From assembly GCA_003224175.1 (NCBI GenBank), contig QHYQ01000179.1, forward strand, positions 1-45,047: 45,047 nucleotides of DNA. The letters run 5' to 3'. This DNA comes from Acidobacteriota bacterium. GTDB lineage: Bacteria; Acidobacteriota; Terriglobia; Acidiferrales; UBA7541. Position numbers and translations under genes: made by a program. The notes under the pieces are model-generated. The model was not told where the DNA came from, did no database searches, and was given only the letters and a program-made list of their open reading frames with translations. This document shows, one piece after another, positions 40,402 to 44,714 of the stretch; position 1 is the stretch's first letter; each line of letters starts with the position of its first letter.

Positions 40402-41847
40402 ATGAGTGAGAAAGAACGCGTTCTCGTCGTGGACGACGAACCAAGTATCCGTAAGTACCTGCAGACACTGCTCGAGGTCGATGGTTACCACGTAACCGCC
40501 GTAGCTTCTGGCCCGGAAGCCCTGGAATCTGTTCAGCAAGCAGAGCGTCCCGATTTCATCATTCTCGATGTGCTCATGCAGGAGATGAACGGGCTGGAAA
40601 CTTTGCGTCGACTGATCCAGGTCGATCGAACCCTAAATGTGATCATGCTCTCGTGCTCGAACGAAGTTACCACGGTTGTCGAGGCTATCCGTCTCGGAGC
40701 GCAGGACTACTTGACCAAGCCGTTTGAAAAAGCAGAACTCGACGCCGCCATACTCAAATGCCGGCAGAAAATGGACCTGCGCAAGGAAAACCAGGCCTTG
40801 CGGGAATATTGCGATCATTTGACTGAGGATCTTTCATTTTTAGCTGCCAGCCCGCAGATGGTGCGCATACGCCAGCAGATCCTGCAGATCGCTCCGGTTG
40901 ATGTGCCCGTATTCATCTGTGGCGAGAGTGGAGTCGGTAAAGAAGTCGTCGCGCGCATGATTCATATGCGCTCCACTCGGCGCGATCAGCCTTTCATCAA
41001 GGTCAACTGCGCGGCCCTGCCTGGCGAATTGCTCGAGTCGGAACTATTCGGTTATGAACAGGGGGCATTCACCGGGGCAGTGCGTTCGAAGCCGGGCAAA
41101 TTCGAACTGGCGAATAAGGGCACCATTTTTCTGGACGAAATCGCTGAAATGAGTCCCCACCTGCAAGCCAAGCTGCTACATGTGCTTCAGGATCATCAGT
41201 ACTCACGGCTCGGCGGGCGTCACATGATCGGCGTCGACGTGCGTGTGCTCGCCGCCACCAATGTGGAGGTCCAGGAGGCCATGAAATCTGGCAGCCTGCG
41301 CGAGGACCTTTACTATAGATTGAATGTACTCTCGATTAACGTTCCGCCCTTGCGGGAAAGGACGGCGGAGATTCCCCTCCTGTTCAGGCATTTCCTCAAT
41401 AAGTACAGCGAAAAGTTCCAGAAAGAGGCCCCCAATCCATCTCAACACCTCATCGAAGCGGCTATTCGTTATGCATGGCCCGGCAATCTGCGAGAGTTAG
41501 AGAATTTTGTCAAGCGTTACGTCATTCTGGAAGACGACGAGGGTAGTTTCCGCGAATTGCTGGAGATGGCGGCTACCCGGCAGCGTATTTCCCCGCGTGA
41601 GGAGCCTTCGCCGGTAAGAGAACAGGGGCTGAAAGCGCTCGTGCGGGGCCTGAAGGATGAAGCTGAAATGGAGGCCATTGCCGACGCGCTTGAGAAAACA
41701 CACTGGTGCCGCAAAGATGCGGCGAAAATGCTCGGAATCAGTTATAAGGCCCTGCTTTACAAAATTCGGCAGTTTAATCTCGATGCGGGGAGGGGATCTC
41801 GCTCACGGACCGCTCCGCCCTTGGCTCCCGTCGGCAAAGAGGACTGA
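40402..41847 (+). CDS. NtrC-family sigma-54 activator (response regulator)
   Basis: A 481-residue enhancer-binding protein. The receiver domain (1-120) has the acidic pair VVDDE and phosphoacceptor Asp56 in FIILDVLMQ, with Lys at the LTKPF site. The AAA+ domain (about 145-380) has Walker A GESGVGKE (174-181), the GAFTGA loop (221-226) that contacts sigma-54, and Walker B GTIFLDEIAEM. The C-terminal Fis-type helix-turn-helix (about 430-460) reads KDAAKMLGISYKALLYKI. It is cotranscribed with the kinase just upstream, and a sigma-54 promoter lies 281 bases downstream. A tail of basic residues follows the HTH. Confidence 0.94.
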   Translation: MSEKERVLVVDDEPSIRKYLQTLLEVDGYHVTAVASGPEALESVQQAERPDFIILDVLMQEMNGLETLRRLIQVDRTLNVIMLSCSNEVTTVVEAIRLGAQDYLTKPFEKAELDAAILKCRQKMDLRKENQALREYCDHLTEDLSFLAASPQMVRIRQQILQIAPVDVPVFICGESGVGKEVVARMIHMRSTRRDQPFIKVNCAALPGELLESELFGYEQGAFTGAVRSKPGKFELANKGTIFLDEIAEMSPHLQAKLLHVLQDHQYSRLGGRHMIGVDVRVLAATNVEVQEAMKSGSLREDLYYRLNVLSINVPPLRERTAEIPLLFRHFLNKYSEKFQKEAPNPSQHLIEAAIRYAWPGNLRELENFVKRYVILEDDEGSFRELLEMAATRQRISPREEPSPVREQGLKALVRGLKDEAEMEAIADALEKTHWCRKDAAKMLGISYKALLYKIRQFNLDAGRGSRSRTAPPLAPVGKED

Positions 41848-42208: not shown

Positions 42209-42541
42209 ATGACCGAACGTCGCACCGCACGACGCTATGATCTTTCCTTACCGGTTCTCATTCACCTACCGGTCGAACGAAACGCTTGTAATGGAAAGAC
42301 TCGCGATATCTCCACCCGTGGGGTTTACTTCCTCATCGGAGACCAGTTCACTGCCGGCTCTGAATTGGATCTAACGATGACCCTGCCGGCCGAAGTAACC
42401 GGCGGTACAGAAGTTTTTATACGTGCCACTGGGAAAGTCGTCCGGGTTGAAAAGACCGCTGGAAACGACGACCGGCAGGTCGGCGTGGCGGCGCTGATTC
42501 AAAGATATGAGATCGTTCGTAGTGAGTCGATGAAGGCGTGA
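42209..42541 (+). CDS. PilZ-domain protein
   Basis: A 110-residue single PilZ domain, likely a cyclic-di-GMP receptor. It opens with TERRTARRYDLSLPVLIHL (RxxxR, the arginine motif) and has the DISTRGVYF motif (D/NxSxxG). The arrangement downstream of a sigma-54 activator and its promoter suggests that phosphorylated activator switches it on. AGGAAACGG lies before the ATG. Partner effector is unknown; PilZ proteins usually act on polysaccharide export, motility or transcription. Confidence 0.88.
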   Translation: MTERRTARRYDLSLPVLIHLPVERNACNGKTRDISTRGVYFLIGDQFTAGSELDLTMTLPAEVTGGTEVFIRATGKVVRVEKTAGNDDRQVGVAALIQRYEIVRSESMKA

Positions 42542-42781: not shown

Positions 42782-44089
42782 ATGACGGCCGGCAATATGT
42801 GGAAATATGCTTCGATGTGCGCGCTCACGCTCCTGGGCGCAACCACTCTCGTAGCGGCCCAGCAGAAGAACATGACTGACTGGTCCGGGGTAATCATCAA
42901 CAGTAGTTGCAGTGGCGACGAAGCGTTCGCCGAGGCCGCCAAATGCGCCGACACGGGTGCGCCGGGTGGGAAGCTATCGTTGTATGACGATACTCTCAGG
43001 TTGGTGCTCAACCTCGATCCACAAGACCAAGCCGCCGGTCACCTGGGCGATAGCGTAACTGTCGAAGGTGCGCTCGAAGGCGACACGATTCGCGTCGCAT
43101 CAATCAAAATGCTCGCCGGCATCGGCCTTGCTGTGGGCCAGAAGGCGCCCGCTTTTTCGGCTCCCGACCAGTTTGGCACGCAACAAACACTCGAAACGTT
43201 GCAGGGACCGCACGGCACCGTTCTTCTCTTTTTCCGTTCGGCCGACTGGTGACCTTACTGCAAAGGGCAGCTGGTCCAGCTGCAGAACGCCAAGGCCAGA
43301 TTTGAGAAGCAAGGGCTCGCGCTGGCCGCCATCAGTTACGACAGCCCGGGAATCCTGAAATCTTTCGCCGACCGGCGCAAGATCGGCTTTCCTTTATTGG
43401 CCGATCCCGATTCCCAAACCATTCGCGCCTACCACGTCTTTAACGCCGAAGCGGCCGGCCAGTTCAAGGGCATGGCGCGCCCCGGATTTTTCGTCCTCGA
43501 CACCAGGGGCATCATCCGCGAGAAATTCTTCGAGGCCAAGTATCGCGAGCGCCTTTCCGGCAATAACGTCATCGCCAAGCTGTTTCCGGAATTGGGCGCA
43601 GAAGTCGCGAGCACCACCGAAGCTCCGCATTTGCGGCTCACGCTCGAGCAGTCCGACCGCACTGCCTTTCCCGGAGGGCTCGTCACCTTGACGGCCGAAG
43701 TACAACTCCCGCCGGACGTTCACGTGTACGCTCCCGGAACTCTGGACTATAAGCCAATCAAGCTGACGATCGATCCCGCCCCGGAAACTGAGCTGCGGCC
43801 GGCGATTTATCCGCCCGCGAAAACGCTCTATTTGCCGGCCATCAAAGAGCGCGTACCCGTTTTCGCCGGAACCTTCCGCATCCGGCAGGACGTCAAGGTC
43901 AGCTCCGCCGCGGACTTCAGCAACGCCCTGGGCACGGAAGGCAAATCCTTGCCCATTACGGGAAAGATCGAGTATCAGGCCTGCGACAGCAAGATCTGCT
44001 TCCTTCCCGAAAGCCTTCCCGTGCAGTGGCATCTGCAGGTTCTGCCGCTCGACCGGCAAAGGGCTCCGGAAGACATTCGCCATAAATAA
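42782..44089 (+). CDS. Predicted selenoprotein: secreted peroxiredoxin/DsbD-alpha fusion with in-frame UGA
   Basis: Read through the in-frame TGA at 43250-43252, this is 435 residues. A signal peptide (1-26, ending VAAQQ) precedes an OB-like domain (about 31-115, Cys-containing N-part, GDSVTVEGALEGDTIRV). An AhpC/TSA redoxin domain runs about 117-262: VGQKAPAFSAPDQFG, FFRSADW-U-PYCKGQ with Sec157 and Cys160, and RPGFFVLDTRG. A DsbD-alpha-like domain (about 286-425) has VHVYAPGTLDYKPI and YQACDSKICFLP (C401, C406). The UGA stands where relatives have WCPYC, giving a UxxC redox centre. The frame continues without stop for 278 sense codons. A hairpin with a GGUC loop follows the UGA. Role: envelope thiol/peroxide reduction, inferred. 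A simple Cys-to-stop mutation is the alternative. Confidence 0.85.
43250..43283 (+). promoter_or_regulatory. Bacterial SECIS candidate
   Basis: The TGA at 43250-43252 is followed by 20 bases and then the loop of GCAGCT-GGTCC-AGCTGC (43267-43283), a perfect 6-7-bp stem with GGUC in its loop. The E. coli fdhF SECIS has the same GGUC loop at about 18 bases from its UGA (from memory). It lies inside coding sequence, as bacterial SECIS elements do. Confidence 0.8.
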
Positions 44090-44354
44090 CTTGGGGCCAA
44101 AGCCGTGAAAAATCGGCGGCGGAAACCGCTCCGTAAGGCGCTCATTTTCCTGCGCGCATCGCTTCAATGAACCTGCCTCGGAACCTTTGGACCGCAACTT
44201 GCTCCTACCTGGGCGTCTCCGCGAAACGGCCCTGTACGAAGAGCCAGTTACCTGTCTCGGCAATCCTGAGTGGGTAAATCTGGACGTATGGTCTTGCCCT
44301 TTCATACAATGCAATCATATGGGCAAGGAACTCATCGAAGCGAGGCGGCATATG

Positions 44355-44714
44355 GGTGATACCTCACTCGCGGTTCGGCGCGCCAATCCGCGGTTTGCGT
44401 TTTTCGCGGAAGCGGAGGCGACCCTGCTCGACGGTACGTCGGTTCCCGCGCAGGTCTCCGAGCTGAGCTCGCGTGGATGCTATATCGATACGCTCCAGCC
44501 CATTCCCATCGGCACGGAAGTGAGTCTGCGCATCTCCGATGGCATGCAAAGCTGCGAACTGCCCGGCAGAGTGATCTACATCCATTCGGGCTACGGCATG
44601 GGCATCTTCGGCATGGGCGTGGTGTTTGGAAACGCGGCCGCCGAGCAGCTCTCCGCCATCAACGCCTGGCTCCGCGACCTCGCCCTCAAGAAAACCCCAA
44701 TCCAGCCCTGCTAG
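44355..44714 (+). CDS. PilZ-domain protein (second)
   Basis: A 119-residue PilZ domain protein: LAVRRANPRFAFFAEAEATLL, an RxxxR-type opening, then SELSSRGCYID (x-x-S-S-R-G, the second cyclic-di-GMP motif, with Glu in place of Asp/Asn). GMGIFGMGVVF resembles the last strand. The frame is open back to 44187, but GAGGCGG seven bases before the ATG at 44355 fixes this start better than the ATG at 44319. It is a distant relative of the PilZ gene at 42209, with the selenoprotein gene between them. Confidence 0.8.
   Translation, partial: GDTSLAVRRANPRFAFFAEAEATLLDGTSVPAQVSELSSRGCYIDTLQPIPIGTEVSLRISDGMQSCELPGRVIYIHSGYGMGIFGMGVVFGNAAAEQLSAINAWLRDLALKKTPIQPC

Follow-up and report, generated by a model that had tools for sequence, protein, structure and literature searches.

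Does the TGA at positions 43250-43252 of an acidobacterial contig end a gene, or does it encode selenocysteine (Sec) in the middle of one? The window, that is, the whole stretch of 45,047 nucleotides that was analysed, contains a plus-strand frame (42782-44089) of 435 codons including the TGA, plus a stop codon. The frame contains only this one TGA, which, as a sequence-only reading of this DNA had claimed, lies in frame between FFRSADW and PYCKGQ and is followed by 278 open codons. A six-frame scan of the window for TGAs that join two open stretches of at least 60 codons each showed the TGA at 43250-43252 to be the sole one in a CxxC-like redox context. Decoded as Sec, it would supply residue 157, with which a UxxC motif (U-P-Y-C160) begins. 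Comparison with homologues indicates that 42782-44089 very probably encodes a single exported selenoprotein of 435 residues, and our confidence in both its selenoprotein identity and the UxxC type of its site is high.

Finding a conserved gene interrupted by a stop codon in a single assembly might also point to a pseudogene, with translation really ending at the TGA and the sequence beyond it decaying, or to a wrongly determined base. Both are extremely improbable, as homologues across many independent assemblies, families and contigs carry the same TGA, and as the downstream part shows dN/dS values of 0.07-0.12, next to a hairpin with compensated base changes (see below). With dN/dS values of 0.16-0.20 upstream of the TGA (all values against three relatives), the downstream codons are under strong purifying selection, which bears out the earlier description of this part as conserved and free of stops. 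A full-length homologue that is 85% identical (L009) has TGA at the same codon.

The frame could alternatively represent two genes, a short OB-domain protein ending at the UGA as a conserved stop and a second protein starting downstream, for example at the TTG at 43397. This is how a mechanical ORF caller treats the locus, splitting it into 42782-43252 and 43397-44089 just as had been anticipated for automatic annotation, and selenoprotein genes of this kind would be split or lost under ordinary annotation. The split, however, falls at the peroxiredoxin (Prx) active site, and no product would contain the whole Prx domain, while homologues with cysteine at this site are uninterrupted single proteins across the same join. 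Together with three Cys-encoding genomes that lie within the Sec clade and lack the Sec machinery, this renders the two-gene explanation very improbable.

To collect relatives, we combined a genome scan, a search of the window's own family (89 genomes) and a search of 396 genomes of the phylum, fetched the loci and read the codon for residue 157 directly. Among distinct homologue sites, this codon is TGA in 56 and TGC or TGT in 47, so that the proposed check for Cys at position 157 was positive. Cys160 is kept in all rows tabulated (29 Sec and 29 Cys).

The hairpin reported to begin right after the TGA was confirmed. It is a bacterial SECIS-type hairpin (43267-43283) starting 14 nt downstream of UGA43250, with a stem of six base pairs (GCAGCU, 43267-43272; AGCUGC, 43278-43283) and a GGUCC loop (43273-43277) that lies 20 nt after the TGA and contains an invariant GU (43274-43275). 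Its minimum free energy (MFE) is -11.2 kcal/mol (z -2.05 by shuffling). Taken alone, the hairpin of the window gene is mildly unusual, given that about 5% of its synonymous recodings would form one. Its conservation across TGA sites, in contrast, is far beyond chance: the full set of six stem pairs occurs at 53 of the 56 distinct TGA sites and at 3 of the 47 Cys sites; for the loop GU, the counts are 56/56 and 10/47. Because the hairpin stretch also encodes QLVQL or QLVEL, part of this conservation reflects protein constraint, and the relevant controls are therefore a synonymous-codon test and the comparison with Cys sites, both of which the hairpin passed. In a narrower set of 27 distinct TGA sequences, 24 retain all six pairs whereas 1.6 would be expected from synonymous codon choice; 98.1% of the cells are paired, three pairs are changed on both sides, and the covariation score was equalled by none of 500 shuffles. 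The bSECIS model, as outlined in the main text of PMC13188914, asks for a stem of 4-16 bp, a loop of 3-9 nt, a distance of 16-37 nt from the TGA, an MFE of at most -7.5 and a G within the first two loop positions. The hairpin has 6 bp, a 5-nt loop (3 nt, GUC, if the G-C pair closes), a distance of 20 nt and -11.2 kcal/mol and thus agrees with the model in that outline. A search against Rfam gave no relevant match.

Decoding of the UGA further depends on the Sec machinery, which had been named as a check and was searched in the host genome with family models. All components were found above the respective cut-offs: tRNA-Sec (selC; 63.6 bits, anticodon tca), selA (543 bits), selD (374 bits) and selB (355 bits with its neighbouring match). 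Sec insertion at the TGA at 43250-43252 is thus well supported by sequence comparison.

One genus (g12) provides a natural experiment, as three Cys species without selA and tRNA-Sec are found inside an otherwise Sec-using clade. Codon 157 is TGC in G082, G083 and G084, and searches for selA and tRNA-Sec in these three genomes found neither, while G085 has TGA, selA and tRNA-Sec. The three TGC genes no longer have the loop GU and fall within the TGA clade; constraining all TGA rows to be monophyletic is rejected by the AU test (p = 0.003). Because of this nesting and the missing selA and tRNA-Sec, we infer a Sec-to-Cys reversion in the three genomes, where the machinery was lost. Matches to selB of about 196 bits in G083 and G084 were discarded; they are below the cut-off and belong to frames of 400 codons, a length that most likely indicates EF-Tu. 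In G085, selD, selA, selB and tRNA-Sec directly adjoin the Sec gene (G085:C20, L117 6003-11777), and the sequence of this Sec gene groups with another genus in trees. The two observations together suggest that a complete Sec cassette may have been transferred with its client gene.

Across the collected genomes, selA was detected in 47 of the 53 genomes that encode the Sec form and in 3 of the 10 that encode only the Cys form (Fisher p = 0.0003). Allowing for relatedness, the association follows mostly the expected direction without being significant (median p 0.375), in a test that has no power with only seven independent pairs. Counting against Sec decoding, no selA match was obtained in six TGA genomes (G058, G068, G086, G320, G435 and G411). 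The first four are 71-79% complete, and G058 and G068 have tRNA-Sec and selB. G411 (L161, L162) and G435 (L134) carry TGA copies with the full hairpin in genomes that are 93-97% complete.

The gene family is widely distributed. The three-domain form described below was found only in the window's taxonomic family and a few close metagenome-assembled relatives. Many families of Acidobacteriota have TGA-containing genes for a two-domain form that combines the Prx-like and DsbD_N parts. In a quick tree of 85 rows, 11 Sec/Cys changes are needed, of which at least eight are forced by well-supported branches; the direction of the deep changes is not resolved by this tree. A reading in which a Cys family gained Sec recently, on one or two occasions, was withdrawn. 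It stemmed from the first relatives scan, which favoured Cys homologues because its query was a Cys-containing peptide pattern, and was overturned by the phylum search, in which most two-domain homologues from other acidobacterial families also carry TGA and at least eight Sec/Cys changes became apparent. Several individual loci deserve mention. The TGC copy L169 (G387:C2) retains the hairpin with its six pairs intact and GU in the loop, and selA had no match in its 98% complete genome; it looks like a recent Sec-to-Cys change. In G210, the two-domain protein is encoded twice, once with Sec and once with Cys (L137, L151), and a more distant group with 26-29% identity (L163-L166) shows RSAVW-U-P-x-C-RTQLVEL with TGA and full hairpin.

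What kind of protein is encoded? The AlphaFold2 (AF2) model, built from 39 aligned sequences, has a mean pLDDT of 90.5 and a pTM of 0.83. Residues 1-27 (42782-42862) appear signal-peptide-like in sequence and in AF2 secondary structure (hydrophobic helix 6-27, VAA-Q), suggesting export. The three-domain architecture proposed in the sequence-only reading stands for two domains, which exceed their Pfam thresholds. These are a peroxiredoxin-fold domain (AhpC-TSA, residues 118-247, 43133-43522; 107.1 bits versus a gathering score of 26) and a DsbD N-terminal (alpha)-like domain (DsbD_N, residues 294-411, 43661-44014; 30.1 bits versus a cut-off of 25). In the model, residues 114-270 superpose on the peroxiredoxins AhpE and BcpB with Z scores of about 20. 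The DsbD-alpha-like domain contains the cysteine pair Cys401-x4-Cys406 (YQACDSKIC, 43982-43999), invariant in an alignment of 20 diverse members (A4). The evidence for the N-terminal domain (residues 31-110, 42872-43111) as an OB-like or DUF5818-like domain is weaker. DUF5818 is matched weakly by 12/12 members (best E 2.4e-6), and the window's own domain scores 23.3 bits, below the Pfam gathering score of 27. Modelled alone, the domain reaches a pLDDT of 84.5 and adopts a five-strand fold, whose best OB-fold match in the PDB, the CcmE OB domain 2kct (E 0.022, all others worse), is not significant on its own. Sequence-profile searches of the PDB with the C-terminal and N-terminal domains returned no matches. 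OB-like is thus a plausible description of the modelled domain, in which Cys43 and Cys55 (Cys16 and Cys28 of the N-terminal-domain alignment A5) are both invariant.

Sec had been assigned to the position of the catalytic cysteine of peroxiredoxins, and this assignment did not hold. In alignments with solved peroxiredoxins, it is Cys160 that falls on the peroxidatic Cys, while residue 157, three residues upstream, is placed at or beside the Thr/Ser of TxxC. Because Cys160 and not residue 157 occupies the peroxidatic column, Sec157-Pro-Tyr-Cys160 is, by alignment, a Trx/Grx-like UxxC site. The same column can be turned into an argument for peroxide reduction as the main activity, in which a Sec-boosted peroxidase would be fed by the DsbD-alpha-like domain instead of a disulfide being reduced or isomerised, and the nearest solved relatives by sequence and structure are indeed the peroxiredoxins AhpE, BcpB and PrxQ. 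Yet Sec replaces the Thr of TxxC within a Trx-like UxxC motif, ResA matches as well, and published UxxC Prx-like selenoproteins are filed, in the parts of the literature covered, as thiol:disulfide oxidoreductases. We regard a predominant peroxidase activity as a serious possibility that is nevertheless somewhat unlikely; sequence does not distinguish between a peroxide and a disulfide as the substrate.

Most likely, the protein acts on thiols and disulfides after export, and the fused DsbD-alpha-like domain recharges its Sec site. The N-terminal domain of DsbD hands electrons to periplasmic partners, and because of this role a fused copy might supply the Sec site as a tethered donor. UGA43250 is very probably decoded by SelB and tRNA-Sec acting on the hairpin 14 nt downstream; after export, the selenol of Sec157 would react and then, judging from the motif, resolve as a selenylsulfide with Cys160. 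By domain homology, the Cys401/Cys406 pair would most likely give reducing equivalents to the Sec site, or take them, and the DsbD-alpha-like domain would link the Sec site to a CcdA/DsbD-type membrane reductant. The host genome encodes a membrane protein of the CcdA/DsbD_TM type, and the frame after it is TlpA-like. The chances that an inter-domain relay between Cys401/Cys406 and the Sec site operates are, in our estimate, about even. Alternatively, the DsbD-alpha-like domain could be a docking or substrate-recognition module that carries no electrons, given that fusion by itself does not show electron transfer and that the C-x4-C spacing differs from that of E. coli DsbD alpha, whose cysteines are C103 and C109. 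We consider a pure docking role unlikely because both cysteines are invariant in the 20 diverse members.

The gene neighbourhood adds context to the putative thiol/disulfide enzyme. Two PilZ-domain genes flank the selenoprotein gene (42209-42541 and 44187-44714), a sigma-54 response regulator (40402-41847) precedes this arrangement, and similar frames adjoin the selenoprotein gene in a genome of the same genus (G060). Across genera, the neighbourhoods of seven relatives revealed no conserved operon partner, the sel genes of G085 being the only telling neighbours. The minus strand opposite the selenoprotein gene is open for 306 codons (43394-44314), most likely as a by-product of the GC-rich coding sequence on the plus strand. 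Elsewhere in the same genome, a second Prx-like gene (G000:C170:11922-12311, L124, minus strand) contains an in-frame TGA followed by PFCLRQLADYRDHYEE and is, on its sequence, probably another UxxC selenoprotein.

How does the protein compare with known systems? Sec-peroxiredoxins (PxxxTxxU) have the PF00578 fold in common with it, but their Sec (TxxU) is peroxidatic; here the peroxidatic position belongs to Cys160, and with Sec157 outside that column, at or beside the Thr/Ser of TxxC, this class was rejected. SelL, whose motif is UxxU, shares the Prx-like fold, and membership in the SelL-related family (NF040769) was likewise rejected, as the protein carries UxxC and scores 45 bits, far under the curated cut-off of 120. 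Like the alpha domain of DsbD, the window protein matches DsbD_N and has conserved paired cysteines following YQA; it differs from DsbD in the Cx4C spacing and in having, by Pfam scan, neither the DsbD_TM nor the C-terminal Trx domain.

Closest are the Prx-like thiol:disulfide oxidoreductases (PF00578, UxxC/UxxU), a selenoprotein kind already described in the available texts of PMC1088965, PMC2398784 and PMC13188914, including "Prx-like" UxxC selenoproteins from the Sargasso Sea survey (PMC1088965). An AhpC-TSA match over the gathering score and U157-P-Y-C160 place the window protein with this kind, and as far as these texts describe them, Prx-like selenoproteins ("Prx-like 1" of the GOS survey) share with it the peroxiredoxin fold, UxxC, the existence of Cys homologues and a bSECIS directly downstream. 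As tabulated, they are named for a single Prx-like domain, to which the window protein adds the DsbD-alpha-like and OB-like domains. Marine data include fusions of other Prx-like groups (PMC2398784), and in the passages covered of PMC13188914, PMC9312934 and PMC2398784 no Prx-like fusion to a DsbD-alpha-like or OB-like domain was found. The suggestion that the combination is rarely described thus holds for the DsbD-alpha fusion within these accounts and fails for Sec at a UxxC site on a Prx fold. TsoB, a rhodanese/DsbD fusion-like selenoprotein listed in a table entry of PMC13188914, is also a DsbD-related fusion but has rhodanese in place of the Prx-like domain and a UxxxxU motif. According to PMC13188914, bacteria rarely replace Sec with Cys, the documented cases being primarily FdhA and SelD, and a literature search on selenoproteomes of Acidobacteria yielded a single test genome from the phylum, with 3 known selenoprotein genes (PMC12013277). 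A broader reading, whose chances we place slightly below even, sees an uncatalogued, phylum-wide acidobacterial family in which a Prx-fold Sec-UxxC domain and its own DsbD-alpha electron-transfer domain would form an exported, self-contained relay, with repeated exchanges between Sec and Cys as the machinery is gained or lost. Measured against the accounts covered, a fused, apparently exported architecture is added to the bacterial selenoproteins, from a soil phylum that the selenoprotein reviews covered hardly mention; with Sec at a UxxC site already known, what appears to be new is the DsbD-alpha-like fusion with its conserved Cys401 and Cys406 and its spread across the phylum.
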